Shown: positions 39,390-57,657 of the stretch, in pieces
Position numbering within the stretch: the stretch's first letter is position 1
Layout: each line of letters starts with the position of its first letter
From: Actinomycetota bacterium
GTDB taxonomy: Bacteria > Actinomycetota > Actinomycetes > Nanopelagicales > Nanopelagicaceae
Length of the DNA stretch: 64,000 nucleotides
Reading direction: 5' to 3'
Assembly (NCBI GenBank): GCA_947372165.1
Contig: CANBSP010000007.1
Coordinates: forward strand, 1-64,000
Made by a program: the position numbers and the translations under genes
Notes under the pieces: model-generated
The model's database searches: none
Told to the model about the DNA's origin: nothing
The model's input: only the letters and a program-made list of their open reading frames with translations

Positions 39390-39403
39390 TGAAAGCGGTT
39401 TCA
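39390..39403. promoter_or_regulatory. LacI-type operator 1
   Basis: TGAAAGCGGTTTCA, a 14-bp near-perfect palindrome with the central CG typical of LacI-family operators. It lies in the divergent region between the GH1 and GH16 genes and is identical to the site at 46467. Confidence 0.7.
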
Positions 39404-39472
39404 TAGAGAAAATCAAGGGAAAATAGCACTTCTTACCCAGTTGTTATAAAGAGTTATAGAAGGAGTCCGATG

Positions 39473-40255: not shown

Positions 40256-40265
40256 ATCAAACTCG

Positions 40266-41633
40266 TTAGTGAGTAATAACTTCGCCGACGCCATTAATGC
40301 TTGAGACGTGAACCCAATCGACTGACATCGTTGCGCTCTTTAAGGCAGGATCGATCGCCCCGCCAAAGTTACCGCCCATGGCAAGGTTGATGAGTAGGTA
40401 GTACTCGTGATCAAAGACCCAAGTATGCGTAGGGTCAGTTAAAGACGCCCTGTTCAGCGATCCGTAAGGCTTGCCATCGAGATACCAGGTGATTTGATCT
40501 GGCAGCCAGTCAACGGCGTAGGTGTGATAATCGCTCGCAATACCGGCATCAATGGATGTGGTGAAAGATTGGCCTGATGCAGGTCCATGTGGCGTTCCGT
40601 AGACAGTTGTCGAGGTGCGACCAAGTAACTCAGTCACATCAATTTCGCCACAGCCTGGCCATGGACGATCATCGATATTTGCACCAAGCATCCAGAAAGC
40701 GCCCCAGGTTCCGTTTCCTACTGGTCCCTTGATCCGCGCTTCGATTCGTCCGTACTTAAATCCAACTTTACCTTTGGTGACAAATTTCGAGCTCACCCAT
40801 TCGCAGGCCGAACCGTAATAACACTTATAAGCAACTGCGCCGGTCGTGCTTGCGGTAGTGACAAGTGAACCAGTTGAATCAATGGTGCTCTGCGTATCTA
40901 AATACCACTGGCGTTCGAGATTACCCCAGCCACGATTTCCATAAGATGTGCCATCGCCATTTTCCGGAATCCAGACCGAAGAATTTAAAGTTGAGCCAGC
41001 GTTGAACTCATCTGACCAGATCAGAGAGTAAGAACGAGGGGCAACCGGAATTGCGATCGACTGTGAAGTCGATGAGGTGGAACCGAAACCTTTTGCAGTG
41101 TACGAAACTTTGAGTGAGATATCACTACCTTGGTCGCCGGTTGCGAGTTGGTAGGTGTTTGCATGTGCACCTTTCACTTCGAATGGACCAGAGAACCATT
41201 GAAGAGTTGGGGTGGCATTTGCCGGAATGGTCTTTGGGAGCACTACCGCCATTGTGGTCTTTGCTACATCAGCATAGGCAATGTTCACAAAGCCATTTAC
41301 TGCGACGCTGCCAATCACGATGGTATTCGATGTAACGGTGACGCCATTTGCGCTCTCACGAGCAGCGATAATGGTCCCCTTCTTTGAAGGTGGCGTAAGG
41401 CTCTTGCCGGAATTGCCCGCTACGACCTTGCCATTTACTACCCATGAAATAGTGCTTTTAGTGGCCGAACTCCAAGTAGCTGGGCTCTCCGTGATCGCTC
41501 CACCCACCTTGGTCAGAGTGATGACCGGAGGGGTGATCGCCGTTATAGCCACGGCCTTTGCTGGTGTGATCAGAAACAGAGTGGAGATGGCCAAGAGCGA
41601 CGATGTGGTGATGCCGACAAATGATTTACGCAT
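40266..41633 (-). CDS. Secreted GH16 beta-glucanase with N-terminal Ig-like domains
   Basis: 455 aa. The signal peptide MRKSFVGITTSSLLAISTLF ends near AKA. About two Ig-like domains fill residues ~30-200 (ITWVVNGKVV, ANATPTLQWFSGPFEV). The GH16 catalytic domain runs from YSLIWSDEFN to the end, with CGEIDVTELLGR as the ExDxxE site. It is exported for attack on extracellular glucan. Tail-to-tail with the cytosolic GH16 gene (10 bp apart); a strong hairpin separates it from the transporter operon upstream. Confidence 0.9.
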   Translation of the reverse strand: MRKSFVGITTSSLLAISTLFLITPAKAVAITAITPPVITLTKVGGAITESPATWSSATKSTISWVVNGKVVAGNSGKSLTPPSKKGTIIAARESANGVTVTSNTIVIGSVAVNGFVNIAYADVAKTTMAVVLPKTIPANATPTLQWFSGPFEVKGAHANTYQLATGDQGSDISLKVSYTAKGFGSTSSTSQSIAIPVAPRSYSLIWSDEFNAGSTLNSSVWIPENGDGTSYGNRGWGNLERQWYLDTQSTIDSTGSLVTTASTTGAVAYKCYYGSACEWVSSKFVTKGKVGFKYGRIEARIKGPVGNGTWGAFWMLGANIDDRPWPGCGEIDVTELLGRTSTTVYGTPHGPASGQSFTTSIDAGIASDYHTYAVDWLPDQITWYLDGKPYGSLNRASLTDPTHTWVFDHEYYLLINLAMGGNFGGAIDPALKSATMSVDWVHVSSINGVGEVITH

Positions 41634-41663
41634 TTCTTCTTAGCTTCCTTCTCTGATGGAGAT

Positions 41664-41701
41664 GCGGCCTGGTCTCCCCTTAGGTGTGTAGACCAGGCCG
41701 C
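41664..41701 (-). terminator. Hairpin terminator after the importer operon
   Basis: Perfect 12-bp stem GCGGCCTGGTCT / AGACCAGGCCGC with a 14-nt loop, directly after the stop of the secreted module protein. No long T tract follows, as is common in actinobacteria. Confidence 0.65.
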
Positions 41702-41733
41702 ACTCGTAGTGCTCTCTTACTTCTGCTTACTTC

Positions 41734-43029
41734 TTACTTCTTGGTGTAGCCCTTTGGACAGACTGGCTTGACGCCAGTGACCTTTACAGTCGTCTTACCC
41801 TTTACACAACTGATTGTTGATGTAGCAGGTGCGGCGACCGCAGCGTTTCCGTAGAAGTGGATCTCGGTGAAGTCTGCAACATCTGTTGCTGCTCCGGTGA
41901 TCTCTGGGAAGATCTGCGAGAAGAGCGCACCCTTAGTTGGATCTGTAGGGGTTGCTGTAGTCATGGTTGCAGGCTTTACCTCGCCCTTAGTGTCAGTGTT
42001 CTTCAAAGTGAAGACCGCATAACCCATCGCATCTGTCGTTGCAGAATAGAGGGCTTGGTCGTTTCCTTGTGAGTCATCCTTCTTAGGATCTGTCGCTACC
42101 TTGCCATCTGTCATCTTGGCATTGGACTTGGAATATGCCTTGTTGACGTGAAGCTTTACAACAGTATTTGGAAGTGCGACGCCATTGTCATCGGTCACCT
42201 TGTATGCCAAGACGATAGATGAACCTGTTGGTGCATAGACCTGGCGGAAGCCAACGCCCGCTGCATACCAAGTGTTATCAACGCTGAAAGTCTTCTCGAG
42301 ATCTGCACGGTGGATCGAGTTCTTATCGTCAAGAACTGGTGTAACCAAGCGGATTGTTGGGTGTGTAACTGGCGCAGTGACTACTGACTTTGGAATGTAG
42401 TAGTGGAACTCAGTGAAGACTGAGTGATCTGGCTTCTCGCCTGCGATTTGAAGAAGGAACTGTGAGTGAAGGTCATTGAGACCATCAGCACTGATATCTG
42501 GCTTGTCGGTGAAGGAGGCTGGCTGTGGCTCGCCAAGTGGCGCCGCATCGAGATCCTTTACTGAGTATGTGACGTTACCGAAAGCATCAGTGGTGTGGAA
42601 GACATTGCCTTGATCCAAAGGTGGCTTATCGACGCCCTTTGTGATGACATTATCGACCTGAACGATCGATGTCGATGTGCTGTAACCCTTATTCACGCGA
42701 AGATTGACAACCTGGTTAACGAGAGGCTGACCGTTCTTATCGGTGACGTGGTAGGTCAAGTTTGAAGTTGAGCCGACTGGAACAAATGTGCGCTGATAGA
42801 TGACGCCAGTTCCGAACCAACCGTTAGCAACCCAACCATCAGCCATCTTCTGGTTAGCGGCTGCTTCGCTGGTATTTGTTGCATCAAGATATGGTGTTAA
42901 AAGAGTTGCATGCGCATCCTGAGGTGGGGTGGTCCCAGCTGCATGTGCTGATCCCGCAACTGTTCCTGCAAATGTCGCGACGAGCGCCGCGGTAGTCACA
43001 GCAACTGCAAGCTTTTTAGCCTTGAGCAT
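41734..43029 (-). CDS. Secreted protein with two copies of the novel ~165-aa module
   Basis: 431 aa. The signal peptide MLKAKKLAVAVTTAALVATF ends around SAHA. The remainder is two copies of a ~165-170-residue module (42397-42909 and 41851-42357), each with a GxxYxxxxxPxGS...Y.VTDxxG core, then L.VNK.YS and a closing xxFxEFH/EIHF strand. The C-terminus is SCVKGK...CPKGYTKK. The second module is nearly the same as that in the protein at 47578. ATG at 43029 is chosen because GGAG lies 5 nt upstream; another ATG lies at 43062. It is the last gene of the ABC importer operon. A glucan-binding role is inferred. Confidence 0.8.
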   Translation of the reverse strand: MLKAKKLAVAVTTAALVATFAGTVAGSAHAAGTTPPQDAHATLLTPYLDATNTSEAAANQKMADGWVANGWFGTGVIYQRTFVPVGSTSNLTYHVTDKNGQPLVNQVVNLRVNKGYSTSTSIVQVDNVITKGVDKPPLDQGNVFHTTDAFGNVTYSVKDLDAAPLGEPQPASFTDKPDISADGLNDLHSQFLLQIAGEKPDHSVFTEFHYYIPKSVVTAPVTHPTIRLVTPVLDDKNSIHRADLEKTFSVDNTWYAAGVGFRQVYAPTGSSIVLAYKVTDDNGVALPNTVVKLHVNKAYSKSNAKMTDGKVATDPKKDDSQGNDQALYSATTDAMGYAVFTLKNTDTKGEVKPATMTTATPTDPTKGALFSQIFPEITGAATDVADFTEIHFYGNAAVAAPATSTISCVKGKTTVKVTGVKPVCPKGYTKK

Positions 43030-43086
43030 TTGTACTCCATTTCTTTTCCTAGGTTTTAACATGGTGAGATCTTTCGCCGAACTGGT

Positions 43087-43974
43087 TTAACCCTTTACTG
43101 CGCCGTCCATAACGCCAGTCACAAGTTTGCGACCGACAAAGATGAAGAGGATGAGAAGTGGTGCGGTTGCCAAGAAGGCACCGCCCATTTGCAAGCCATA
43201 ATCAAGTCCATACATTGGCTTCAGCTGGGTAAGAGCAACTTGCAGCGTGAAGTGCTTGGGGCTTTGCAAAACGATGGTTGGCCACAGGTAATCATTCCAA
43301 GCGGCCAAGAAGGCGAAGAGACCAAGGACGAATCCGCTCTGTCGCACAATCGGGAGAACGATCCGGAAGAAGATACGTGGAACGGATGCACCGTCGATAC
43401 TTGCTGCTTCCAAGAGTTCATTCGGAATCTGGGCATCGATGATCTGTCGCATCCAGAAGACGCCAAAAGCGGTAATTAACGCGGGGACGATCAAGCCATA
43501 GAGGGTATCGACCATGTGGAGATTCTTCACAAGCATGAAGAGCGGGATGATGCCGAGTTGGCTTGGCAGCATCATGGTTCCGACAACGAAGAGAATCAGA
43601 CCCTTGCGCCCCTTGAAATCAAGTTTTGCGAAGGCGAAGCCAGCGATCGCCGAGAAAATCACTTGCGCAATAGCGATCGAGATACCGACGATGAAGGTAT
43701 TGAGGAGAGCGGTATTGAAATAGACGCCCTGCGCACTGAGGACCTTCTTCGCCACAATGAGGAATCGTCCACCTGGGATTAATGATGGTGGGCTCTTGGA
43801 GATTTCGGCGTTGGTATTGGAAGCAACAACGAACATCCAATAGAACGGGAAGATAGAGAGGGCGACGATCATCGCCAAGAGCACATAATTGCGCTTTGGT
43901 ACTCGACGCCAGCGAGGCTGCTTTACGCGCTTGGCCTTCACAACAACAGTATCCGGAGCCATCTGGGTGCTCAT
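43087..43974 (-). CDS. ABC sugar importer permease (MalG-type)
   Basis: 295 aa with six membrane helices. The EAA loop EAASIDGASVPRIFFRIVLP, which docks the ATPase, is in place. It forms the membrane channel with the upstream MalF-type permease; their genes overlap at TAATG. Likely substrate is beta-glucan oligosaccharides, from context. Confidence 0.9.
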   Translation of the reverse strand: MSTQMAPDTVVVKAKRVKQPRWRRVPKRNYVLLAMIVALSIFPFYWMFVVASNTNAEISKSPPSLIPGGRFLIVAKKVLSAQGVYFNTALLNTFIVGISIAIAQVIFSAIAGFAFAKLDFKGRKGLILFVVGTMMLPSQLGIIPLFMLVKNLHMVDTLYGLIVPALITAFGVFWMRQIIDAQIPNELLEAASIDGASVPRIFFRIVLPIVRQSGFVLGLFAFLAAWNDYLWPTIVLQSPKHFTLQVALTQLKPMYGLDYGLQMGGAFLATAPLLILFIFVGRKLVTGVMDGAVKG

Positions 43975-44966
43975 TAGCGCGTCCCATCATTAGAAATTTT
44001 ACGAGTAATGACAAAGTTCACGGCCGAGATAATCAGGACGATGAAGGTAATGAAAATACCGATCGATGCGGCATAGCCATACTTATTATTAACGAAGGCC
44101 TGGTTATAAAGGAAGAGAGTGAGCGTGAGGAACTGCTTACTTGATCCGCCATCAGAGGCAAGCTGCTGAGGTTCGGCGAAGACCTGAAGTCCGCCGATGG
44201 TTCCGACGATCAAGACAAAGGTGATGGTGTTCTTGAGCTGTGGCAGGGTCACATATCGGAATTGCTGCCACTTTGATGCGCCGTCGACCGATGATGATTC
44301 GTAGAGCTCGTTCGGGATCGCAAGCATTGATGCCAAGAAGATGAGTGTGTTGTAGCCGATCCAACGCCAGGTGATCATGGTGGCGATCTGAACGTGGCTT
44401 GGGATCACGCCTTCAATAAAGTCGATGTGATGGCTAAATCCGGCCCAACCAAGAATGTCGTTGATGATTCCGAAATCGCGGCCGAAGAGTTGGCTAAAGA
44501 CAATGGTAATAGCGATGACCGAGGTGATATTTGGGACGAGCAAGATGGTTCGGAAGAATGATTTTCCGCGAAGGCGGGTATTGCGCAAGATATTTGCGAG
44601 CCCGATCGCCATCAGCATTTGTGGGAAGGTAGAAAGCGCCCAGATGCTAAATGTATTGCGAAGTGCCAACCAGAGGTCGGAGTCATGCAAGAGTCGATCG
44701 AAGTTGTGGAGTCCGGTGAAGGTTGATTCACCCAGTGGATCCCAATGGAAGAAGGAGATATAGACAGAGTAGACAACAGGAGCAAGACCAAAGATCGCAA
44801 ACATCACAACAAATGGGGCCACATAGAGGTAGCCCCATTTGCCATTAAGAGATTTCACGCCAGGAAATTGCGTCGCCTTCTTCGCCTTGGATGAAGAACC
44901 TTGTGGGCTCTTTGACTTCCAAGGAGAGAGCGCTTTCTTACGCCCTCTCTCTGCAACTTCACTCAT
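43974..44966 (-). CDS. ABC sugar importer permease (MalF-type)
   Basis: 330 aa. A basic cytoplasmic N-terminus (RGRKKALSPWKSKSPQGSS) is followed by six helices and the EAA-like loop ESSSVDGASKWQQFRYVTLP. It pairs with the MalG-type permease. No ATPase gene is in the cluster, so the importer probably uses a shared MsiK-type ATPase encoded elsewhere, as is common for actinobacterial sugar importers. Confidence 0.9.
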   Translation of the reverse strand: MSEVAERGRKKALSPWKSKSPQGSSSKAKKATQFPGVKSLNGKWGYLYVAPFVVMFAIFGLAPVVYSVYISFFHWDPLGESTFTGLHNFDRLLHDSDLWLALRNTFSIWALSTFPQMLMAIGLANILRNTRLRGKSFFRTILLVPNITSVIAITIVFSQLFGRDFGIINDILGWAGFSHHIDFIEGVIPSHVQIATMITWRWIGYNTLIFLASMLAIPNELYESSSVDGASKWQQFRYVTLPQLKNTITFVLIVGTIGGLQVFAEPQQLASDGGSSKQFLTLTLFLYNQAFVNNKYGYAASIGIFITFIVLIISAVNFVITRKISNDGTR

Positions 44967-45013
44967 CGGTATGTGCTTCTTTCTCTCAGATCTGAATCAA
45001 CTGATAGTTCGGA

Positions 45014-46366
45014 TTAGTTATTCACTACCTTGTTGAGTTCACTGAGTACTTGAGCCCATGATTTATCTGCAGTCTGCTTCTTGGCGGCAACTCGGCCAAG
45101 ACCTGCACCGATTGCTTGATCAATTGCGCGCTGCAACTTACCTTCAAAGATCGGCTTCAGCGTCTGAACACCAGCGGCATAGATCTGACCGACTGGGGCA
45201 TTGTTGAAGAATGGATCCTTATATCCAGTAAGTGCTGGATCCTTGTAGAGAACTGATGCAGCTGGGAAGAGTCCATAAGTCTTGAAGACCTTGAGCTCTT
45301 GAGCAGGTGCGAGGTACCAGGTCAAGAAGTCATAAGCAGCTTGCTTATTCTGTGCATACGATGGAATTCCAAGTTGTGTTCCGCCTTGGTTTCCGCCGCC
45401 GCCTGGCATATCAGCAATATCCCACTTTCCATTTGTGTCCGGTGCCTGCGCCTTGATGTAATCCATCATCCACGCTGGTGCCAAGATCGTGGCAAATGTG
45501 CCCTTGTTCATGCCGATATTCCAGTCAGATGTGTACTGACCGATACGTGTACCAATACCTGCATTTGTTGCTTTGATGGTTGTGTTCCATGCCAACTTCA
45601 CCTGTGGGTTAGTCGCATAGATGAGCTTTCCGCTCTCGGTTCCATCGTTTGCATAATATTTCGCAGTTCCCTGGTTCATGATCGCGGCGTAGATAGTGCC
45701 AGCGTTATCAATGAAACCAACGCCTGCCTTCTTCTCAGCAGCGGTTAACTTTGCGTTGTACTTCTGACCGGTTGCAATGAATGCATCCCATGTTGGCCAG
45801 AGCTTGGCGACCGCGTTGCGCTCTGTTGGAAGGCCAGCCTTCTTGAAGAGATCAGAACGGTATGCAACTTCGAGTCCGCCGACATCGGTTGGAATACCGA
45901 TAACGCTGCCATCAAAAGCTACGCCTTGCTGCCAGCGCCATGCGAGGTAGTTCTTCGCAATGTCATTTGCAGTCTGTCCTGCTGGAATTCCTGCAGTTGG
46001 TTCACCAGTGGTCTTCATTGTACGAAGATCGGTGAAGCACTTTGGGTATGAACGCCAGTATCCTGAATATGAGACTTCGGTCGCGACGATATCTGGACCG
46101 GTCTTCGAGGTACATGCAGTGACCATGTTGGTTCCATCAAGTGGATCAAGGTCAGACTTCTTAATCTGAAGTGTTACTTCTGGGTGGAGTGCCTTGTACT
46201 CAGCGACAAGTTGGCGCTGAATAACATCACCAAAGGTCCAGATAGTGATCGTTACAGGTTCGGCAGCTTTTGCTTGAGCGGTGAAGACACCGGCGCCGAT
46301 CGCGATTGCTGCAAAGGATGCAACAAGGGCTTTGCCTCTTAATTTTGTAATCATTCCGTTACGCAT
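45014..46366 (-). CDS. Sugar-binding protein of the ABC importer
   Basis: 450-aa family 1 extracellular solute-binding protein. The signal peptide KALVASFAAIAIGAGVFTAQAKA has no lipobox cysteine, so the protein appears secreted, or held in another way. Conserved features are ITIWTFGDVIQRQLVAEYK and PDIVATEVSYSGYW. AGGAG lies 5 nt before the ATG. First gene of the importer operon, with a LacI-type operator upstream at 46467. Substrate inferred as glucan oligosaccharides. Confidence 0.9.
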   Translation of the reverse strand: MRNGMITKLRGKALVASFAAIAIGAGVFTAQAKAAEPVTITIWTFGDVIQRQLVAEYKALHPEVTLQIKKSDLDPLDGTNMVTACTSKTGPDIVATEVSYSGYWRSYPKCFTDLRTMKTTGEPTAGIPAGQTANDIAKNYLAWRWQQGVAFDGSVIGIPTDVGGLEVAYRSDLFKKAGLPTERNAVAKLWPTWDAFIATGQKYNAKLTAAEKKAGVGFIDNAGTIYAAIMNQGTAKYYANDGTESGKLIYATNPQVKLAWNTTIKATNAGIGTRIGQYTSDWNIGMNKGTFATILAPAWMMDYIKAQAPDTNGKWDIADMPGGGGNQGGTQLGIPSYAQNKQAAYDFLTWYLAPAQELKVFKTYGLFPAASVLYKDPALTGYKDPFFNNAPVGQIYAAGVQTLKPIFEGKLQRAIDQAIGAGLGRVAAKKQTADKSWAQVLSELNKVVNN

Positions 46367-46466
46367 TCAAACTCCTCAGGTCTTGACTGGCGCGGCAATT
46401 GCTTTACAGTTATGCGAGGCCACAATTCAAAGATTCTTTCAGCCAGGTGTAGGCTAGAAACATCTA

Positions 46467-46480
46467 TGAAAGCGGTTTCA
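46467..46480. promoter_or_regulatory. LacI-type operator 2
   Basis: TGAAAGCGGTTTCA, identical to the site at 39390, in the divergent region between the binding-protein gene and the GH16 at 46605. Confidence 0.7.
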
Positions 46481-46604
46481 CAGATGGAAGTTAAGTGGAA
46501 TTTCCGCCTCTTGGCAAGACCAAGAGAGGGGTTCGCGCAATTGTTATCAAAGCGTGATCAAGCGGTCTCGCCAAACTGCCCGAGAGAGGTCAGAGTTGAT
46601 TCTT

Positions 46605-47525
46605 ATGAGCGCAACTAGACGCACCCGAACCCTTGGCTATCTCGCGCTTGCTTCTTCTCTCGCCATTTTCACAGCATTAACGATCGAGGCTCCTGCCAAG
46701 GCGGCGACAAAGATCACCACCTACAAACTTCTCTGGGCTGATGACTTCACCGGTAAGAAGGGCACACTCCCTAATCCAAAGGTCTGGTCCCCCGAACTCG
46801 GTGGATTAAACTCCAACGGCGAACTCGAGTATTACACCAAAGATTCCAAGAACCTCGCCCTCGATGGCGCAGGACACCTTCTTATTACTGCAAACCGCAT
46901 CGCAGATCAGTCGCTCATGGCAGTCAGTAATGATCCCGCGATCGATCGCATGCTTAATGCTTGTAACGCATGCCAATTCACCAGTGCAAAGATCAAGAGT
47001 GCAGGCAAGCTCATGTTCCAATACGGAAAGCTTGAGATTCGCATGAAGGTCCCATCAGGTGACGGAACCTGGCCAGCATTTTGGATGCTCGGCAGCGAAC
47101 TCCTGAAGGGTATCCCTTGGCCAGATTCTGGTGAGATCGATATTCTCGAAACAAAGGGATCACTTCCTAACACTGCATTCGGAACCATCCATGGCCCTGG
47201 ACTTCCAGGTGGAGCAGGTGGTGGTTTTGGATCGACCTTCACATCACCAACCGCATTGACTTCTGGATTCCATACTTATGGAATCGAATGGAAGAAGAAT
47301 CAGATCGACTTCTATGTCGATGACAATCTCTACTTCACCGCAGCGGCCAATGATCCATCGACTGGCACCTGGGTCTACAACCAACCATTCTTCATGATTC
47401 TCAATCTTGCAATGGGCGGCCAATTCACCGGTGACCTCGACCCAGCCATGACAAAAGCTCAAATGAGCATCGATTACATACATTTCTACTCCATCAATGG
47501 AGTGGGCAAGGTCCTCAAGAGCTAA
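46605..47525 (+). CDS. Secreted GH16 beta-glucanase
   Basis: 306 aa. The signal peptide (TLGYLALASSLAIFTALTIE, ending APAKA) precedes a single GH16 domain (KLLWADDFTG...). The catalytic site is GEIDILETKG, and [10 protein letters not shown] precedes it. A frame open to 46554 is ignored because MSATRRTRTL begins a normal signal peptide. Divergent from the sugar-binding protein gene, with LacI-type operator 2 between. It ends with the shared tail YSINGVGKVL. Confidence 0.9.
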   Translation: MSATRRTRTLGYLALASSLAIFTALTIEAPAKAATKITTYKLLWADDFTGKKGTLPNPKVWSPELGGLNSNGELEYYTKDSKNLALDGAGHLLITANRIADQSLMAVSNDPAIDRMLNACNACQFTSAKIKSAGKLMFQYGKLEIRMKVPSGDGTWPAFWMLGSELLKGIPWPDSGEIDILETKGSLPNTAFGTIHGPGLPGGAGGGFGSTFTSPTALTSGFHTYGIEWKKNQIDFYVDDNLYFTAAANDPSTGTWVYNQPFFMILNLAMGGQFTGDLDPAMTKAQMSIDYIHFYSINGVGKVLKS

Positions 47526-47577
47526 GCCATAAAGAACAAGGACGAATTAACCCCTACAAACAACTGAAAGGCAGCAT

Positions 47578-48954
47578 ATGAAGAAGAGAATCATGAGTGG
47601 CGTTGCCGCTCTAGCCTTGGTCGCATCAGGCCTTGGATTAACTGGTCTAACAACCCTCACTCAGGCACATGCCGCAGGATTGCCAACAGTCCGCGTTGTG
47701 ACACCTGTCTTCAACCCAGCGAATGAGACCTTCGTGGCCGATGGCCTTGGTCAGTACTACGCAGCTGGCGGACGCAGTTATTACATGTATGTGGGCGCTG
47801 GTTCAACCATCACCATTACATATGCTGTCACAACCGATGGCACGACTCCTGCTGCTGGTAAGACAATTAATCTTCAAGTCAATGCGCCTTATAGCGGATC
47901 AAAAGCTGCGTGGACCGTCGGTGGAAAGATGGTCGGACCATCAACTGACTCTGCAACTGGTTATGGATTACAAGTAACTGGCACAACTGATGCTAATGGA
48001 AACGTTTCATTCACAATCGTGAATACCGATACCGCAGCGACTGCAGAAGCCCTTCCGGCATCCGAAACTGCGCCACGCGCTGCATCAGGTCGCACCTACG
48101 GAAATATCAAGGCAGTTATCGATGGCCTCACTGATATGCAGCAGGTTGAAGATCTCTTGACCTTTGATATTACAAAGGCCGCTGCTTCAACGATCCCAGC
48201 TGCAGCCACCGCAACTCCATCACCATCGGCGACTCCAACTGCAACACCAACTGCCACACCAACTGCCACACCAACACCAACACCATCTGCAACACCGATG
48301 GCTACTGCAACACCAACACCAACACCAACCGCTGCACCTGCACTCAACATCCGCTTGGTGACTCCAGCTCTCACTGACACAAACTCAATCCATCGTAAAG
48401 ATCTTGAGACGCTCTTCAGTGTCACAAACACCTGGTACGCAGTAGGCGTTGGCTTCCGCCAGATCTATCTTCCTGCTGGCTCTAAGTTCACCGTCGCTTA
48501 CAAGGTGACAGATGCTGCTGGCGCCCCAGTCGCTGGCAAGACCGTCCTCCTGCATGTAAACAAGGCTTACTCCAAGTCCAATGCAGCGATCACTGATGGC
48601 AAGAACGCCACAGATGCCAAGAAGGATGATTCTCAAGGCAACGATCAGCTCCAGCTCAGCGCCACAACAGATTCAAAGGGCGTTGCTACCTTCAACCTCC
48701 AGAACACCAACACCAAGGGCGAAACTGCCCCTGCAACTCCTTTGACTCCAACCCCAACAGATCCAACAAAGGGTGCGCTCTTCTCTCAGATCTACCCAGA
48801 GGTCAATGGCGCCAGTGATATCGCGGATTTCCTTGAAATCCACTTCACCACTCCAGCACCAGCAAAGACCACGATCACCTGCGTAAAGGGCAAGACTGTC
48901 ACAAAGGTGACTGGAATTAAGCCGGTCTGTCCTAAGGGCTACACAAAGAAGTAA
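47578..48954 (+). CDS. Secreted two-module protein with Pro/Thr linker
   Basis: 458 aa. The signal peptide (VAALALVASGLGLTGL, ending AHA) is followed by a first module at residues ~37-198, a TATPTPTP linker at ~208-252, a second module at ~256-424, and the C-terminal TCVKGK...CPKGYTKK. The second module is very close to that of the protein at 41734 (shared NSIHR.DLE, LHVNKAYSKSNA, KKDDSQGNDQ, PTDPTKGALFSQI). GAAAGG precedes the ATG. It follows a GH16 gene by 52 bp. Likely a surface glucan-binding partner; no enzyme motif is visible. Confidence 0.8.
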   Translation: MKKRIMSGVAALALVASGLGLTGLTTLTQAHAAGLPTVRVVTPVFNPANETFVADGLGQYYAAGGRSYYMYVGAGSTITITYAVTTDGTTPAAGKTINLQVNAPYSGSKAAWTVGGKMVGPSTDSATGYGLQVTGTTDANGNVSFTIVNTDTAATAEALPASETAPRAASGRTYGNIKAVIDGLTDMQQVEDLLTFDITKAAASTIPAAATATPSPSATPTATPTATPTATPTPTPSATPMATATPTPTPTAAPALNIRLVTPALTDTNSIHRKDLETLFSVTNTWYAVGVGFRQIYLPAGSKFTVAYKVTDAAGAPVAGKTVLLHVNKAYSKSNAAITDGKNATDAKKDDSQGNDQLQLSATTDSKGVATFNLQNTNTKGETAPATPLTPTPTDPTKGALFSQIYPEVNGASDIADFLEIHFTTPAPAKTTITCVKGKTVTKVTGIKPVCPKGYTKK

Positions 48955-48996
48955 AGATAAGTACAGTGATCTAACGATCACATTAAGGGAGCCCCT

Positions 48997-50865
48997 GTGA
49001 AATTCCGCTCGACGCAAGCCGTAGCGATTGCAGGGGCTCTCTTCGTTTTTCTTACCTCTACTTTTAATAACATCACAACTGCAGCGACACCCGCGAAGGC
49101 CGGCGGAATCTGCACCAAGATCTCTCTAACGACCATCGTTGGCAAGATCCATTACATTTGTGTGAAGAGTGGCAAGAAACTTATTTGGCAAGTTGTTCCG
49201 ACTCCAAAGGTCACACAGAAGCCAACACCAACACCCACTCCAACACCCACTCCAACACCCACTCCCACACCCACACCCACACCCACTCCCACACCCACTC
49301 CCACTCCAACACCCACACCCACTCCCACTCCCACACCCACTCCCACACCCACTCCCACTCCCACACCCACTCCCACTCCAACACCCACACCCACTCCCAC
49401 TCCCACACCCACTCCAACACCCACTCCCACTCCCACTCCCACTCCCACTCCCACTCCCACTCCCACACAAACCACAGTAAAGGGAACCGGGCTACCGCAC
49501 GCGCAGATGATCATCCCTTCTGATGGCGTTCTTGGTTTGGTAGATAAGACTTCTTACAGTTCGGGCTGGGCCCAGTACTACGGAACAGGTCTTGGATATA
49601 AAGATGCATTTGTGATGCAGGGTTCTACATTCACCCTTAAGTGGCTTGTGACCGATGCATTCGGAATGCCATTGAAGAATCAAGCTGTCACGCTCTTGGC
49701 AAATAAGGGATATGGCGGAGCGAATGCAACATTCTCTGTCGGGTCAGTCTTTGTCACAAACCTTGCTGGATCAAATGATGGCGCAGATATTCTGGGATCC
49801 ACTGATTCATCAGGTATCGCAACTTTCACTTTGAAGCAGATATCCCCTGCGACCGAGCCATCATCAATCTCTGTTACAGCTATCGACCCTCTGAACGCAG
49901 CCACTGGCGCTATCTATGGCCAATTCGGCCTCCAAATCGGATCAATCGCCCAGATCAATCAATCTATGGATATCGTGGATCTTCACATCCTCCCCAATAC
50001 CAATGCAGTCACACCGACTCCAACTCCATCACCAAGCCCAACACCGACTTCGCCTTATTTGTGGTCTGCTGAGTTCAACGAAACTGCCGGAACCAAACCA
50101 GATTCAACCGTCTGGACGCCATTACTTGGTAATGGCTATGCCCAACTTGGTTTCTATAACTACGGAACCGGTGAGATCGAATCCAACTCCGCAGATGCAG
50201 CAGCTACCGATGGACAGGGCAATCTTGCAATAACAACCACCAAGCAAAATGGCGTATGGACGAGTTCGCGAATCTGGACACAAGGCAAGCTCTCTTTCCA
50301 ATATGGAAAGATCGAGGCACGCATTAAATATCCAGTCGGAAGTTTTAACTGGCCAGCTTTCTGGATGCTTGGCAGCAATTACCTCTTCCCAAATAACAAA
50401 TCGGGATCTGTCCCATGGCCAAATAGCGGTGAGATCGATATCGCCGAAGGCCTACAAAGTAACCAGGTAGATCAATCAACACTCCATGCCAACTACGTGG
50501 GAAGCAATAACGATTGGAGTGGCGGCGGCGGCCTCACTGCAACCGCCCCATACTCAAATATCTCCTCTGAATTCCATACGCACGGAATGATCTGGGAACC
50601 TAACTCGATCTCCTTCACTCTCGATGGCGTGGTCTTTGCAAAGGACACCTATCGTGATGGGCATATCTATCAATCACTCAATGGTGGGCCCGATCAGATG
50701 ATCAATATCAACGGTGATTGGCCATTCAATAAGCCATTCTTCTTAATCCTCGATAACGCAGTCCCGGCGGGTGCCAATGCCCCGGATGGCACTTCTTCCC
50801 AGATGCTGATCGACTGGATCCATTACTCGACCTATAACGGCCTTGGAACTCTCGCTCATAACTAG
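48997..50865 (+). CDS. Large secreted GH16 with (Pro-Thr)41 linker and novel module
   Basis: 622 aa, GTG start with AAGGGA 6 nt upstream. Order: signal peptide (~1-30); small Cys motif GGICTKISL...[12 protein letters not shown] (37-65); 41 uninterrupted Pro-Thr pairs (76-157); one copy of the ~165-aa module (~168-334); a short second PT linker; GH16 domain from [10 protein letters not shown] to the end, with catalytic [10 protein letters not shown]. The module joined to a glucanase suggests a substrate-binding function. A small hairpin follows the stop. Confidence 0.88.
49222..49467 (+). repeat. Pro-Thr coding tandem repeat (41 x 6 bp)
   Basis: 246 bp of CCN-ACN codon pairs, mostly CCCACT and CCCACA. 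The other strand is a long run of GGG triplets separated by 3 nt, a G-quadruplex-type pattern. The CCAACACCC variants at 49306 and 49378 mark a 72-bp higher-order period, indicating past internal duplication. Confidence 0.9.
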
Positions 50866-50940: not shown

Positions 50941-50971
50941 AACACCAACTCATGACTTATGAGTCGGTGTT
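50941..50971. other. Dyad, candidate recombinase crossover site A
   Basis: 12-nt arms AACACCAACTCA and TGAGTCGGTGTT (11 of 12 complementary) around the 7-nt asymmetric spacer TGACTTA. The innermost part, CTCAT-GACTT-ATGAG, is a perfect dyad, and its left edge (50949) is exactly where the inverted repeat shared with gene B begins. Matches the size of tyrosine-recombinase core sites; binding is not proven. Confidence 0.55.
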
Positions 50972-51101
50972 AAAGGGCCAAGCCGAGATGAAGAAATTCT
51001 TCAAATCGACTTTTTCTGAAAGGAAAATAATGTCTACAAAGACAAGCTTTAAGCGCATCGCCGCTGTAGCTGCTGTAGCACTCACCCTCGGTGGGTTCTC
51101 A
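50949..51101 (+). repeat. Inverted repeat, 5' block, copy A
   Basis: 153 bp, identical but for one base (51089) to the reverse complement of 56005-56157. It covers the leader, the ribosome-binding site and the signal-peptide codons of S-layer gene A, and includes a 15-bp palindrome TGAAGAAATTCTTCA at 50989-51003. Confidence 0.93.
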
Positions 51102-53201
51102 GCTGTTTCAGCTCACGCTGCGATCTCAGTCACGTCGTACTCGACTGACTACGCGTCAACTTCTGTCGCGCTTGGTCAGGATGCAGTACTCGTACTTCAC
51201 CAGGACTTCCTTGCTTCTGCTGTGAATGACACACAGACACTCACAGTTGCAGTTACAGGAAACGTGTACGGCACAACACCAAACACAACCTGGCCTACAG
51301 TGTTCAAGGGTTCAGACACCGCAACCGTATCAGCGGGAACATCTGCTGAAAAGGCTCGCGGATACGCAGCCGATGCTGTTTACGGTGGATTCCCTTCCGC
51401 AGACATTACAGCTGGCAGCGTAAATGTGAATAACACACAGGTCGTCACAAACAACGCTTCTACCGTTATTACGGTGAAGAACTCTGCAGTTGCAGTAGGT
51501 CGCGTTCGTGGCTTTGAAAGAATTGAATGGAAGCCAACAGCAGCGGGAACTTACTCTCTGAAGGTCACCTCTGATAGCACAGGCGATAGCCTCTGGTCAT
51601 ACACATGGACTTTCACAGTTGGATCATCAACTCTTTCTGATGCCACTGCGAAGACAACCCTTGCTGGACAGACTCCAAGTGCTACATTCTCAAAGGCCGT
51701 CAATGGCTATAACAACTGTGGCACTTACACAGGATGTCTTGTTGGGTCCACATATGCTCGCGCATTCTCTACTTTCCCAGCTGTAAACCACTCTGCTGTC
51801 GATGAGTCAGTGTATGCATCGAAGGCACTCAGCCTCAATGGAGCATCAATCCCGGCTGCGGCTATTGTCGGAGACGTAAACAGCACAGCCAGCACAGGTA
51901 ACACTTATGATGCAATGAACGGCGCTTATGTATTTGCATCCATCAGTGGGCCTGGTTGGTTAACACTCTCTGACTACGGTTCATCTACAAATGCTCAAGG
52001 TCGTTCAGTCGTGACAAAGTTGGCGTTAACTTCAAATGACTACCAGCTCCTTGTTGGATCAGATGGAATCGCAGGCGTTGCAACAGTCACGATTTCTGCT
52101 GCAAATAGCTTGACAGCAACACCTGTTGTGATCGCAACTAAGACTGTCACTTTCTATGACACACCAGGAAAGGCAAGCCTCACACGTCTTGCTTACTCAA
52201 TAAACGGTGATGCCGGTGCTGCAGCTACAGCTGCATTCACACTAGGAATCACTGACCTTTCTGGTAACAAGGTGCCTTACACTCAGGCAGTTGGTCTCGG
52301 ATTCTTCGCAAAGGTTGCATCGGATAATTCAACTATCCTTCCTGCTTCAACAACGTTGTCTTCTGCGACTGTAAGCCTTCAGCCTAAGGGTGCGTTGTAT
52401 GGAACTGCGAATGTCACAGCAACAGTGTCAAACGACACTGGTGGCGCTGCAGGTACAGCAACAGGACTTGATGCTTCTGGTTTCAAGGCCACTACATTCT
52501 CAACAACTGCGTCAGCAATCACAGTTGCAAAGAATCAGGTTGCGAAGTTGGTAATCACTACTGACTCAAACGCCTACACACCAGGACAGGCAGGAGTAAT
52601 CACCTTCTCTGCTACTGATGTAAATAATCTCCCTGTACCAGATGCTTTGAACCCAGGAGTTTCAACACTATCGACGATTGCAACTTCAGGAAGCCTTACA
52701 ACAGGATTCTCTGCAATCACTTCAATTGGTGGTTTTGGATACTCTTGCCCAACATATGTTGCAGGAACTTCAGCAACTGATTGTGGTGCAGGTCTAAGCA
52801 CTGTTAACTTCTACGCGCCAATTGCAGAAGGAAACTTCACAGTTAACTTCACACTTGGAACTGGCTTCAGCACAGCCTTAGCTGCAACTGTAGCGAGCGT
52901 AACTTCAAGCGTAGCTCCTTCAGCCGCAACCAATGCAGCTCAGGCTGCTCAGGATGCTGCTAACGAGGCAACAGATGCTGCTAACGCTGCAACTGATGCT
53001 GCTAACAACGCTATGGATTCAGCAGATGCTGCACAGCAGGCTGCAATGGATGCTGGCGACAAGGCAGATGCTGCTCTTGCTGCAGTAACAGACTTGGCTT
53101 CAAAGGTCTCTGAGATCGCAGCTGCGGTCACAGCCCTTTCAAGCGTTGTCGCAAAGATCGCTGCAGCAGTTGCAAAGATCTCCAAGAAGGTAAAGGCTTA
53201 A
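51030..53201 (+). CDS. S-layer-like surface protein A
   Basis: 723 aa. Signal peptide MSTKTSFKRIAAVAAVALTL with cleavage near SAHA; long Thr/Ser/Ala-rich beta-type central region; one Cys pair each near 51718-51736 and 52746-52787; and a C-terminal helical region rich in Ala/Asp/Asn (DAANEATDAANAATDAANNA) with a basic end ISKKVKA. Such composition fits an S-layer or abundant surface protein; no standard SLH domain is seen. The GAAAGG at 51017 supports ATG 51030, although the frame stays open upstream through the leader to 50910. Inverted paralogue of gene B; the recombinase gene follows. Confidence 0.75.
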   Translation: MSTKTSFKRIAAVAAVALTLGGFSAVSAHAAISVTSYSTDYASTSVALGQDAVLVLHQDFLASAVNDTQTLTVAVTGNVYGTTPNTTWPTVFKGSDTATVSAGTSAEKARGYAADAVYGGFPSADITAGSVNVNNTQVVTNNASTVITVKNSAVAVGRVRGFERIEWKPTAAGTYSLKVTSDSTGDSLWSYTWTFTVGSSTLSDATAKTTLAGQTPSATFSKAVNGYNNCGTYTGCLVGSTYARAFSTFPAVNHSAVDESVYASKALSLNGASIPAAAIVGDVNSTASTGNTYDAMNGAYVFASISGPGWLTLSDYGSSTNAQGRSVVTKLALTSNDYQLLVGSDGIAGVATVTISAANSLTATPVVIATKTVTFYDTPGKASLTRLAYSINGDAGAAATAAFTLGITDLSGNKVPYTQAVGLGFFAKVASDNSTILPASTTLSSATVSLQPKGALYGTANVTATVSNDTGGAAGTATGLDASGFKATTFSTTASAITVAKNQVAKLVITTDSNAYTPGQAGVITFSATDVNNLPVPDALNPGVSTLSTIATSGSLTTGFSAITSIGGFGYSCPTYVAGTSATDCGAGLSTVNFYAPIAEGNFTVNFTLGTGFSTALAATVASVTSSVAPSAATNAAQAAQDAANEATDAANAATDAANNAMDSADAAQQAAMDAGDKADAALAAVTDLASKVSEIAAAVTALSSVVAKIAAAVAKISKKVKA
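52935..53074 (+). repeat. Inverted repeat, 3' block, copy A
   Basis: 140 bp encoding the Ala-rich C-terminal helix, with 3 mismatches to the reverse complement of 54389-54528. Lower similarity continues to about 20 bp beyond the stop codon (AATTCGCAAGAATTAGCTAA). Confidence 0.9.
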
Positions 53202-53232
53202 TTCGCAAGAATTAGCTAACTGCTAAAAAGGA

Positions 53233-53264
53233 CTGGCCCCCTGTCGGTAAGGACAGGGGGCCAG
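53233..53264 (+). terminator. Terminator after S-layer gene A
   Basis: 13-bp stem CTGGCCCCCTGTC / GACAGGGGGCCAG with a 6-nt loop, followed by CTTCTTTATT. Confidence 0.85.
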
Positions 53265-53320
53265 CTTCTTTATTCTAGTTGACTAGTCATCACCTTTTTA
53301 CTGTGAGGCGAATGAGAAGA

Positions 53321-53333
53321 AACACCTACTCAT
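53321..53333. other. Third copy of the dyad half-site, upstream of the recombinase
   Basis: AACACCTACTCAT matches the left arms of the dyads at 50941 and 56135 at 12 of 13 positions. The opposite arm is absent. It lies ~100 bp upstream of the recombinase gene, in a 230-bp region without coding potential that also contains the palindrome TGACTAGTCA (53280). A possible accessory binding site or autoregulatory site. Confidence 0.4.
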
Positions 53334-53431
53334 AGATTTTCATGACTTCACCTGTCCATTCATGTTAATGAACAAAATTAGATTTCTTGAGAAAATTGAT
53401 CCACTTCTTTCTTACCAAGGGAGTTTTACAG

Positions 53432-54181
53432 ATGGTTTTAGATGCTTTTGCGACGTCCCTATGGCCTCATCTCCCGGTGACCCATAAAACTCGTCGTAAC
53501 TACTCGGGCGCTTATAGGAGGCACCTTCATTCACCTCTTGGCAGGAAGCCCCTGGAAGAGATCACAAAGTTTGATCTCATTGAGGCGATGCAGGCTCTCT
53601 CTCCACAGACCAAGTATCAAACTCTTATGGTGGCTCGCGTGCTATTCCGTGAAGCGCTGAACCGCGAACTCGTAGAGGACTCTCCGGCTGCACGAATTAA
53701 GGCCCCAAAGATCACCGTGGACCCATCAAAGTTCCTCATCTGGGAAGACCTAAGGGAGATCGACTTCGGATCTCAGACCACTCGTATTCGCTTTCTAGCC
53801 CTTCATGGCCTTCGTTATGGAGAGGCTGCGGCACTGACAGAAGAAGATATCTACGATGGCCGTGTCCACATCACCAAATCAATTCATGGAAAAACAAAAT
53901 CTGCGGCAGGTGTTCGAACGGTCCCACTTATGAGTGAATTCAAGCCCTTTGTGAAGTATCAGAACACGATTGCAGCACGTCTCAAGCCATATGGAGTCAC
54001 TGTCCACTCACTGCGTAAGACCTACGCATACATGCTCAAGAGCGCGGATGTGCACGTCACTACAGCCTCAAAACTCATGGGGCATAGCAACCCATTGATC
54101 ACCATGAAGATCTACACAGCGGTGCTTGATAACGAGATTGAAAAGTCAGGTACGGCTCTCAATAACTACATGGCTGGCTAA
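53432..54181 (+). CDS. Tyrosine recombinase/integrase between the S-layer genes
   Basis: 249-aa site-specific recombinase with all catalytic residues: Arg128 in LHGLRYGEAAAL, Lys at 154-156 (HGKTKSAAG), His192-x-x-Arg195 (HSLRKTYA), His218 (MGHSN) and nucleophile Tyr228 (MKIYTAVL). The N-terminal SAM-like core-binding domain (NYSGAYRRHLHSPLG) is present. ATG 53432 is chosen because AAGGGAG lies 8 nt upstream; an in-frame ATG at 53387 has none. No excisionase, phage or transposon genes accompany it. Its place between inverted paralogues suggests it inverts them. Confidence 0.88.
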   Translation: MVLDAFATSLWPHLPVTHKTRRNYSGAYRRHLHSPLGRKPLEEITKFDLIEAMQALSPQTKYQTLMVARVLFREALNRELVEDSPAARIKAPKITVDPSKFLIWEDLREIDFGSQTTRIRFLALHGLRYGEAAALTEEDIYDGRVHITKSIHGKTKSAAGVRTVPLMSEFKPFVKYQNTIAARLKPYGVTVHSLRKTYAYMLKSADVHVTTASKLMGHSNPLITMKIYTAVLDNEIEKSGTALNNYMAG

Positions 54182-54198
54182 ATACTTTATGAAAAGCC

Positions 54199-54230
54199 AG
54201 AAGGCCGGCCCCCTAAGGGACCGGCCTTCT
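54199..54230. terminator. Bidirectional terminator between recombinase and S-layer gene B
   Basis: 10-bp stem AGAAGGCCGG / CCGGCCTTCT around a 12-nt loop, placed between two convergent stop codons. Confidence 0.8.
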
Positions 54231-54261
54231 GTACTACCAGGGTTTAGCTAATTCTTTCGAA

Positions 54262-56076
54262 TTATGCCTTTACCTTTGCAGAGATCTTTGCAACTGCTGC
54301 AGCGATCTTTGCGACTACAGCTGAAAGGCTAGTGATCTGTGTTGCGATCTCTGAGACCTTTGTAGCCAAGTCAGTGACAGCTGCGAGTGCAGCATCTGCC
54401 TTGTCGCCAGCATCCATTGCAGCCTGCTGTGCAGCATCTGCTGAATCCATGGCGTTGTTAGCAGCATCAGTTGCAGCGTTAGCAGCATCTGTTGCCTCGT
54501 TAGCAGCATCTTGTGCAGCCTGAGCTGCGTCAAGTGAAGCGTTAGCTACAGCAACAGGTGTTGCTGTGATTGCTGCAGCGGTTCCGCCGGCAACAACTGC
54601 GTCAACAGCTGCTCCCTGAGTTGCGCTAAACACTACTGAACCTGAGATAGGAGCATAAGCAGTGAAAGTTGCAACACCCTTAACGAGTGTTACAGCAGCT
54701 GAAGCTGTGTATGTTGGGCTGTTAACCAAAACATCGCTGGTGATACCAGTTGATGAGAAGAGGTTGCGAGCACCATCAGCAACTGGACGGCCATTAGCAT
54801 CTGTTGCAGTAACAGTAAGAGTGATCTTCTGTCCTGGAGCATATGTTGATGAGTCAGTTGTGATTGTGACTGTCTTTGCTGTTGTCAAAGTAACTTCTAC
54901 TGGAACAACCAAAGTAACAGTTGCTGCTGTAGTTGAGTTAGTCAATGTGATGTTTGCTGTTCCAGCTGTAACGCCAGTAACAGTGATAACACCAGAAGTA
55001 TCAGTTGCTGTAACAGTTGCAACTGCTGTGTTTGAGCTTACTGCGTTAACAGTTCCCAATGTAGCAGCGTTTCCGTTTGCATCTAGACCTGTCACTGTAA
55101 GAGTAGAAGTTCCACCCTTAGCAATGTAGTTAGCAAATGTTGAAGCCTGTGTAGCAGCAAGTGCGTACTTAGCCAAAGAACCTGTGAAGGTAACTGTCTT
55201 TGTTGAAACAACTGCGCCACCGATAGACACGGTAACTGTTGCTGTTCCTGAGCGACCGTCAGACCAGATTGTGAATGACTGAAGGCTTGCAGCAGTAGCT
55301 GTTGCTGATGGGCCACGGTTTGAACCTGTGTTTGAGTAAACATCCACAAGGCCTGCACCTGAAACTGCGACAGTTACAGCTGCTGGAGTTACCATCGCAG
55401 TTGTGGTGTCTGTTGTTGAGTATTGGCGGACGTCAATGCGGGCTGAAGCTGCGCCTGCACCAACAGATGCTCCTGCTGCTGCAGTGATTGCCGCATCAGC
55501 TGTGATTTCAGATGAACCAGCAGCGCCGATGAAGGCTGTTGCGTGGTCTAGCTTCTGGGCTGAAGCAGTAACCGTCCATGTTGCCTTCTGGGTGCTATCA
55601 ATTGTTGAGAAAACAACAATTGTGTATGAACCAGCGACATCAGGTGTGAACTTGAGGTTGTAGTAGTAGTTCACGCGTGTTGGTGAGCTTGGAGCTGTCA
55701 CACCGAGTGTAGCAAGGTCATAATAACCGAGGCTAGATGGGTAGGTTTCAGCGAAAGTTGCACCGGTTGTGTTGGTGTATGTGGTGCCAGTGTAGGCAGT
55801 AGCAATGGTTGCATTGTATGTAAGTGCTGATGTTGATGGCACTGCAGCAATAAATGCTGCTGCTGCGAGATCTGCACCATTTGTTGTTCCAACACCAGAG
55901 AGGTGTACAACAGCTGTGACAGGCACGCCAACTGAAGCAGTAGTTGGTGCGCTTACTAGCTCAACTGTAGGCAATTGGCCTGGAGCAGCATTCGCTGAAA
56001 CTGATGAGAACCCACCAAGGGTGAGTGCTACAGCAGCTACAGCGGCGATGCGCTTAAAGCTTGTCTTTGTAGACAT
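54262..56076 (-). CDS. S-layer-like surface protein B
   Basis: 604 aa, paralogue of protein A on the opposite strand. The signal peptide differs only after LGGFS (SVSANA instead of AVSAHA), and the C-terminal Ala/Asp helix is nearly identical. The central region is different in sequence and shorter, with Big/Ig-like beta repeats (TITTDSSTYAPGQKITLTVTATDANG) and no cysteines. GAAAGG precedes ATG 56076. The frame is open upstream as far as 56256, the base next to the sigma factor's stop codon, so a longer coupled product cannot be excluded. Confidence 0.75.
   Translation of the reverse strand: MSTKTSFKRIAAVAAVALTLGGFSSVSANAAPGQLPTVELVSAPTTASVGVPVTAVVHLSGVGTTNGADLAAAAFIAAVPSTSALTYNATIATAYTGTTYTNTTGATFAETYPSSLGYYDLATLGVTAPSSPTRVNYYYNLKFTPDVAGSYTIVVFSTIDSTQKATWTVTASAQKLDHATAFIGAAGSSEITADAAITAAAGASVGAGAASARIDVRQYSTTDTTTAMVTPAAVTVAVSGAGLVDVYSNTGSNRGPSATATAASLQSFTIWSDGRSGTATVTVSIGGAVVSTKTVTFTGSLAKYALAATQASTFANYIAKGGTSTLTVTGLDANGNAATLGTVNAVSSNTAVATVTATDTSGVITVTGVTAGTANITLTNSTTAATVTLVVPVEVTLTTAKTVTITTDSSTYAPGQKITLTVTATDANGRPVADGARNLFSSTGITSDVLVNSPTYTASAAVTLVKGVATFTAYAPISGSVVFSATQGAAVDAVVAGGTAAAITATPVAVANASLDAAQAAQDAANEATDAANAATDAANNAMDSADAAQQAAMDAGDKADAALAAVTDLATKVSEIATQITSLSAVVAKIAAAVAKISAKVKA
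54389..54528 (-). repeat. Inverted repeat, 3' block, copy B
   Basis: Partner of 52935-53074; encodes the Ala-rich helix of protein B. Confidence 0.9.
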
Positions 56077-56157
56077 TATTTTCCTTTCAGAAAAAGTCGA
56101 TTTGAAGAATTTCTTCATCTCGGCTTGGCCCTTTAACACCGACTCATAAGTCATGAG
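56005..56157 (-). repeat. Inverted repeat, 5' block, copy B
   Basis: Partner of 50949-51101 with one mismatch in 153 bp; carries leader, ribosome-binding site and signal-peptide codons of gene B. Confidence 0.93.
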
Positions 56158-56165
56158 ACGGTCTT
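56135..56165. other. Dyad, candidate recombinase crossover site B
   Basis: On the + strand the arms are AACACCGACTCA and TGAGACGGTCTT around the spacer TAAGTCA, which is the reverse complement of the spacer at site A. Opposite spacer orientation predicts inversion, not deletion. The outer arm differs from the perfect complement at two positions. Confidence 0.55.
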
Positions 56166-56176
56166 TTTGGACCACG

Positions 56177-56256: not shown

Positions 56257-57657
56257 TTACTTCGATCCCTTGGTTGCGACCTGAATAGCCTGGGCCAAGA
56301 TTTGTGTCTTGCCAGGGTTCAGAATCAAGCGGGTGGTGATAGAAGTCGGGGCAGAAGTCACGTCCACGCCTCGGCTTACGGGGATAATTATACCCGCCTC
56401 AGATAGCGAATCGATGTACATCACGCTTGTTACGAGGTAGTTACCCTCGGGTAGACGTGTGATCTTCGTGCTCGTACCTGAAACTTTGAGTGGTACCCAC
56501 GCCCCGTTAACGGAGACTGATGGGCTAGCCGTATATGTGGTGCCATCGCCTGTGACAGCGACCTTCTGGCTGAGCAGCACTGCAACAGCAGCGGCGTCAT
56601 AGGTCATCGCTGGGGCGCTCAAGAGTGTGCCCTCATCGGTCAAAAGTGGAGCCGGAGTTCCGACGATGATCTTTCCGGCGTGACCCTGAAGATCAGTGGC
56701 GGTGAAGCCAGTTGGGAGGCCATTTGAATCGAGGCCATAGAAAGCTAGTGGTGCGAGCTTGGCATCAACTTGCTTGACCAAGGCATCGGACTTGTTCTGC
56801 TCGGCTGTGGCGGTGGCAGACGGTGATGAGGCCGTTGCTGAGGCAGAGGCTGAAGCGGTTGGTGCAGCTGCTGGAAGCTCTTGTGAAGCAGATGGAGTGG
56901 CTGTGCCGACGTTGGTGACGGCGCTCTTGTTGCCAAATGAGCCAAAGCCAACGAATGCTGCCAAAAGGAGAACAAGCGAAAGGGCGACCTTGGAAGATTT
57001 CTTCGCAAGCTCGGCTGCCTTCTTATAAGAGGTAGAGAGAGCATCGAGTGCGGTAGCACCGGTCTCTTCATCGACAACCCACTCAGTCAAGACGCGGACA
57101 AATGAGGCGCGGGCGCGCTGGACAACGTGGCGAACATTCGCTGGGGTTGTTCCGAGCTCGGCGGCGATCTCTTCGGTGGTGCGGCCTTCCATCTCCCACA
57201 TGACGAGCGCAGTGCGCTGATCTGCAGAGAGACGAGAGAGTGCCTCGCGGATGATGCTGGCATCTTCTGCGGCGGCAATGGAGTCATCAAAGGCGATGTG
57301 GTTCTCGGCTGCGATCTCGTTGATGCGCTCGACAGAGGTCTCGGAATCGATCGCTACCAAGTTAGGGCGTGAGCCGGTGGCGCGGATCTGGTTGAGGCAA
57401 AGGTTATTGACGGTGGTACGGAGGTAAGCGAGCGCACGATCACGGCTATCGAGCTCTGGGGCAGCCATGATGAACTTAAGGAAGGCTTCCTGGACGATTT
57501 CGACGGCATCTGACTCTGAACGCAAGATGCGGCGAGCCTGAGATGTGAGTGATGAGCGTTGTTCGGCGTAGAGCGCGGAGAGATCGGCAATAGACCACTC
57601 TGAAACAGGAGTTGGTGTTGCCCCCTGTGCAGGTGTCTGCTTCTTACGAAGTGCCAC
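56257..57657 (-). CDS. ECF sigma factor fused to a transmembrane and extracytoplasmic domain
   Basis: 466 aa. Residues ~25-93 are sigma region 2 (SESDAVEIVQEAFLKFIMAAP) and ~135-190 region 4 with helix-turn-helix (EGRTTEEIAAELGTTPANVRHVVQRARA). A single membrane helix at ~223-241 (VALSLVLLLAAFVGFGSFG) leads to a Ser/Ala/Pro-rich stalk (~250-286) and a ~180-aa C-terminal domain outside the cell. Ordinary ECF factors are ~200 aa. It may sense envelope state and be released by proteolysis (inference). It lies directly upstream of S-layer gene B on the same strand. Confidence 0.8.
   Translation of the reverse strand: MALRKKQTPAQGATPTPVSEWSIADLSALYAEQRSSLTSQARRILRSESDAVEIVQEAFLKFIMAAPELDSRDRALAYLRTTVNNLCLNQIRATGSRPNLVAIDSETSVERINEIAAENHIAFDDSIAAAEDASIIREALSRLSADQRTALVMWEMEGRTTEEIAAELGTTPANVRHVVQRARASFVRVLTEWVVDEETGATALDALSTSYKKAAELAKKSSKVALSLVLLLAAFVGFGSFGNKSAVTNVGTATPSASQELPAAAPTASASASATASSPSATATAEQNKSDALVKQVDAKLAPLAFYGLDSNGLPTGFTATDLQGHAGKIIVGTPAPLLTDEGTLLSAPAMTYDAAAVAVLLSQKVAVTGDGTTYTASPSVSVNGAWVPLKVSGTSTKITRLPEGNYLVTSVMYIDSLSEAGIIIPVSRGVDVTSAPTSITTRLILNPGKTQILAQAIQVATKGSK

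Follow-up and report, generated by a model that had tools for sequence, protein, structure and literature searches.

In most freshwater lakes no bacteria are more abundant than the actinobacteria of the acI group (PMC5301498), whose genomes are small. In a stretch of 64,000 nucleotides from one such freshwater actinobacterium, referred to here as the window, two genes for surface proteins, A and B, face each other across the gene of a tyrosine recombinase, R, and the question raised by this locus is whether the recombinase turns the DNA around and thereby decides which of the two proteins is displayed. A first-pass annotation had proposed such an invertible switch, a reading that is now supported by its recurrence in six genomes, by a precise site boundary, by homogenisation of the repeated arms within each genome and by a conserved leader found on the sigma-factor side only.

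Anatomy of the Locus

A check of the open reading frames placed A, R and B where the first-pass annotation had them, with A and B convergent on R (Table 1). The inverted repeats at both ends of the two genes also stood, although they proved longer than first described: the 153 bp with one mismatch at the 5′ end, which start at 50949, continue at lower identity to 182 bp (95%) and reach into the signal peptide, whereas the 140 bp with three mismatches at the 3′ end are the best part of a 285-bp arm pair with 90% identity. Arms of this length rule out a chance origin. The centres of A and B had been called unrelated or strongly diverged, of which only the latter holds, since the two are homologous with 26% amino-acid identity. 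Outwards, the 5′ homology stops on both sides exactly at CTCAT-GACTT-ATGAG, a palindrome that had been missed. The segment is thus flanked by two inverted sites with an identical crossover, the layout by which an invertible switch is recognised, and its inversion in silico gives intact junctions.

Table 1. Features of the candidate switch and its flanks, in window coordinates.
Feature	Positions	Strand	Description	Basis
Left recombination site (putative), CTCAT-GACTT-ATGAG	50949-50963	+	non-sigma side	outer edge of 5′ homology
5′ inverted arm of gene A	50949-51121	+	leader, RBS, start, signal peptide	95% to 55985-56166 in reverse
Gene A	51030-53201	+	723 aa secreted Ig-like surface protein, C-terminal coiled coil	ORF; homologues at inverted pairs of relatives
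3′ inverted arm of gene A	52935-53219	+	coiled-coil tail	90% to 54244-54528 in reverse
Terminator-like hairpin after gene A	53233-53264	+
Tyrosine recombinase R	53432-54181	+	249 aa, complete catalytic set	PF00589
Terminator-like hairpin after gene B	54198-54231	-
3′ inverted arm of gene B	54244-54528	-		arm comparison
Gene B	54262-56076	-	604 aa, same surface-protein family as A	ORF; proposed expression position behind sigma-factor gene
5′ inverted arm of gene B	55985-56157	-		arm comparison
Right recombination site (putative), CTCAT-GACTT-ATGAG	56143-56157	-	sigma side	inverted to left site, same 5-bp spacer
Conserved leader outside the invertible segment	56158-56256	-	proposed fixed expression signal	contains GTCAGCACGTGCGTCAC
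ECF-type sigma factor	56257-57657	-	long C-terminal extension	PF04542 and PF08281; adjoins surface-protein gene in relatives too

The proteins encoded by A and B carry a signal peptide, Ig-like repeats and a long C-terminal helix. A low-confidence structural model (pLDDT 58) matched SbsB, SbsC, EA1 and Sap, and also adhesins and invasin; as both S-layer proteins and adhesins are among the matches, the evidence carries no further than to call each a surface protein that has Ig-like repeats, and the label S-layer-like is a guess.

Other features were noted around the locus. Positions 37927-50865 of the window probably form a beta-glucan module between a polysaccharide cluster and the switch, with several GH16 proteins, a GH1-like enzyme, a sugar ABC transporter and Thr-Pro linker proteins, one of the GH16 proteins containing a long threonine-proline coding repeat of 12-18 bp units (49199-49490). 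In G003, a genome of the same genus, the polysaccharide cluster directly adjoins the switch. On the other side, the C-terminal extension of the sigma factor includes a probable membrane helix.

The Recombinase and the Palindrome

R matches the Pfam profile PF00589 above its cutoff (6e-10), and its gene is complete, as the first-pass annotation had it: R128, K156, H192, R195, H218 and Y228 are all present and invariant in 17 homologues. The predicted model reaches a pLDDT of 90 and has the Tn1549 and lambda integrases as its closest folds. Homologues were gathered by profile from public genomes and from 296 genomes of the order, and their tree divides (100/100) into one clade associated with surface genes or sites and another ('solo') located elsewhere. 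Loci of the surface-linked clade hold 21 exact motifs where 0.36 would be expected, a figure that is descriptive because the motif was defined from some of the same loci, and none lies near the 'solo' clade. Across the 296 genomes R and the motif co-occur (9/12 versus 17/284, p 1e-8), an association that rests on leader sites classified by ourselves in genomes that vary in completeness and share ancestry. The second, 'solo' clade (L117-L123, L040) is not near surface-protein genes, and one of its members, L117, lies between palindromes of another kind, such as CATTTGAAGT-GGGTG-ACTTCAAATG. Searches of viral contigs found no R homologue; matches to the motif in them were judged to be chance, the collection being very large.

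The whole genome contains four exact copies of the motif, two of which mark the ends of the segment and are the sole copies in the window. Comparison of sites showed the CTCAT and ATGAG arms to be nearly invariant and the N5 to be free, while the outer stem bases vary among species yet pair, for instance ACCGA/TCGGT versus TGCCCT/AGGGCA, and some copies are followed by T tracts. Such pairing in varying sequences hints at a role of the palindrome as an mRNA hairpin. The same leader carries the palindrome in relatives with a single surface gene and no R (G152, G153, G157, G065, G223 and G001), which points to an older or additional role as mRNA hairpin, operator or landing site and weakens the case for an invertible switch. 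The motif as a strict marker of R was therefore rejected, since complete loci devoid of R carry the leader palindrome.

Recurrence in Relatives

The design is common to six genomes including this one, each with an R homologue, an inverted gene pair and an inverted pair of CTCAT-N5-ATGAG sites; the two sites of a pair share one spacer. The arrangement in G003 is identical to that of the window, with ACCGACTCAT-GACTT-ATGAGTCGGT at the edge. The inverted site pair has the spacer GGTTC in the acI-C1 isolate IMCC26077 (G094), where the sites are at 402425 and 409237, TGCTA in G145 and GACAT in G221, which has three surface genes and two R genes, whereas in G191 inverted motif pairs with the spacer GACAT lie within the arms. 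The outer edge of homology falls exactly on the motif in this genome (G000) and in G003, G094, G145 and G221. In G145, R is located just outside the gene pair, which counts against the switch. An arrangement kept after loss of the recombinase had been named beforehand as the observation that would speak against the proposal; no inverted pair was seen in the relatives without R that were examined, where a solitary leader site does occur.

A Probable Expression Side

Whether or not they have R, relatives keep the order of sigma-factor gene and then surface-protein gene. A CAGCACGTGC-type motif is present at most 130 bp from the site on one outer flank in all six pairs and on the opposite flank in none (0/6). 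This leader is on the sigma side in the five pairs whose contig includes the sigma gene (5/5) and on one side in G191, and is also found in the leaders between sigma factor and surface-protein gene (SIG-SLP) of relatives devoid of R. A leader restricted to one flank suggests that expression takes place from a single fixed site and that the other position is silent, and gene A, next to the flank that has no conserved leader, is probably the silent one in the sequenced orientation. Counting against the switch, a scan for sigma-70 promoters on both sides of the locus gave no more matches than chance and identified no promoter. An Rfam scan of the locus including the leader found nothing near threshold, and the leader patterns were not found in viral contigs. 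Two hairpin-like stretches, TTTCCCGCGCAATCCGGATATTGCGAGGGAA and GATGTGTCAGCACGTGCGTCACATC, are strongly conserved in this leader and in the SIG-SLP intergenic regions of relatives.

Traces of Recombination

Comparison of informative arm columns between this genome and G003 gave 22 that are concerted within each genome versus 3 that follow position, as orthologous arms would; the arms of one genome therefore exchange sequence with each other. Such homogenisation could also come about without R, through homologous recombination of one arm with the other. Silent and expressed alleles form no separate lineages. Orientation was compared with one genome per species, and some lines of argument were discarded: orientation could not be read from the orthology of A and B between genomes, their centres being too diverged, and contig breaks are no proof of both orientations, since relatives without the site break there too and repeats of 150 bp break assemblies anyway.

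Breakpoints at the motif were also observed away from surface-protein genes. Over a stretch of 1610 bp that includes R and a Doc/antitoxin pair, the contigs L039 (from G018) and L069 share 99.88% identity, and they part exactly where a CTCAT-ACTCC-ATGAG site ends, with different units beyond; in L069, whose bin is labelled Methylophilaceae and which is probably misbinned, these include toxin-antitoxin genes of the Phd and HTH/Gp49 types, separated by further sites. The Doc unit of G009 is 92% identical and its homology ends at the site as well, whereas no site was found at the far end of the toxin-antitoxin unit in G018 and G009. Possible cassette arrays were seen in L039 (1174-3650), L069 (1-3600), L258 (6567-7459) and L262 (7715-8490), where Doc/RHH, Phd/RelE-like and HTH/Gp49 toxin-antitoxin units and a 136-aa ORF lie between or beside CTCAT-N5-ATGAG sites, near R or inside polysaccharide gene clusters.

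Proposed Mechanism and Alternatives

Altogether, judged from the sequence, the segment 50949-56157 is probably a site-specific inversion switch, in which R flips which surface protein is expressed. R would cut the two inverted CTCAT-N5-ATGAG copies, with the 5-bp crossover GACTT, in the 5′ leaders of A and B, and the DNA between the two sites would flip. With the upstream signal fixed outside the segment, beside the sigma-factor gene, the flip would set whether B (as sequenced) or A is expressed, and the other gene, behind an unrelated flank, would be silent. Since leader, signal peptide and C-terminal tail are common to A and B, the flip would alter nothing but the exposed Ig-like centre. The action of R on these sites, present-day inversion and the silence of the second gene are what we infer; the purpose would be surface variation against phage or grazers.

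The same picture might have arisen by a mere inverted duplication, the arms being kept alike by functional constraint and RecA-type gene conversion, with R unrelated or inactive and inversion, if any, homologous and rare. In favour of such an origin, the arms span functional parts (leader, signal peptide and coiled coil), where constraint preserves similarity, and the leader palindrome exists without R; it is nevertheless rendered quite improbable by the sharp outer edge on the same motif in several pairs, by the presence beside all pairs of an R from one clade with intact catalytic set, and by the occurrence of the motif at toxin-antitoxin breakpoints that have no surface-protein arms. Slightly less improbable, but still unlikely, is that the palindrome is a leader RNA hairpin or the operator of a regulator and that R uses another site. 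The leaders of relatives lacking R, the differing and yet pairing outer stem bases and the T tracts after some copies are in keeping with this idea, whereas near-invariant CTCAT/ATGAG arms around a free N5 fit recognition by a protein and the motif bounds toxin-antitoxin units outside the leader. A dual role, as hairpin or operator and as recombination site, is possible.

A broader proposal overlaps with the inversion switch and extends it: R and its sites may belong to an integron-like cassette exchange, in which surface genes are inverted as one outcome beside the integration and exchange of units flanked by sites. The three surface genes of G221, two of them with a 5′ GACAT and a 3′ GGTGA site, and the finding that sites in L039, L069 and L258 enclose toxin-antitoxin units or small genes agree with it, but examples are few, the unit of G018 and G009 has no site at its far end, no free circles were seen and spacers differ along arrays, unlike in simple circle integration. 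We hold this wider scheme to be tentative, with considerably lower odds than the switch itself. Equally tentative is a lineage-wide, integron-like shuffling in acI, in which small tyrosine recombinases of one clade would use CTCAT-N5-ATGAG sites both to flip and exchange surface genes where expression is fixed and to mobilise toxin-antitoxin units of the neighbouring surface-polysaccharide region. If true, the wider cassette-exchange system would be a more novel finding than the switch.

Relation to Known Systems

In the sap system of Campylobacter fetus, a single expression site serves surface-layer genes that share their ends and are otherwise silent, much as proposed for the present locus. 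We know of no dedicated recombinase gene in the invertible segment of sap, and the present locus differs in its R gene and its defined palindromic sites. A functionally similar switch is the slpA/slpB inversion of Lactobacillus acidophilus (Boot et al. 1996, cited in PMC7858073, which also mentions S-layer switching in C. fetus). The present case differs in that a tyrosine recombinase gene lies inside the segment, in its CTCAT-N5-ATGAG sites, in belonging to a different phylum and in that inversion is deduced from sequence. In Clostridium difficile, a genetic switch makes the cell-wall surface protein CwpV phase variable (PMC2784873), as proposed here; one gene (cwpV) is switched there, whereas the present locus would swap entire coding regions behind one expression signal.

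By sequence and fold, the closest solved relatives of R are the Tn1549/Tn916-type integrases (PDB 6emy; PMC5871717). The substrate of Tn1549 Int consists of two inverted repeats around a 5-bp crossover (PMC5871717), the same layout as CTCAT-N5-ATGAG. In contrast to those integrases, R is as short as 249 aa, and its surroundings showed no sign of a conjugative element: inspection by eye of the window ORFs that were read recognised no conjugation genes, and R lies directly between two surface-protein genes. We do not class the locus as a Tn916-like conjugative transposon. With integrons (IntI/attC) there is a likeness in layout only, namely that palindromic sites delimit toxin-antitoxin units in the vicinity of a tyrosine recombinase gene, whereas the surface genes here are inverted pairs and IntI4 is only a weak relative of R.

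Our literature searches, in which subscription journals were thinly covered and absence is not proof, did not turn up a switch of this kind for the lineage, a paper that joins Nanopelagicales with S-layers or phase variation, or one combining S-layer, invertible, tyrosine recombinase and freshwater. The type of switch is itself known; the putative switch described here would work like slpA/slpB, but it brings along a tyrosine recombinase gene and belongs to a lineage in which our searches met no earlier case. If true, a surface-switching device in acI would be a concrete route to escape phage or grazers, and the motif together with the recombinase clade can be used to scan existing lake metagenomes.
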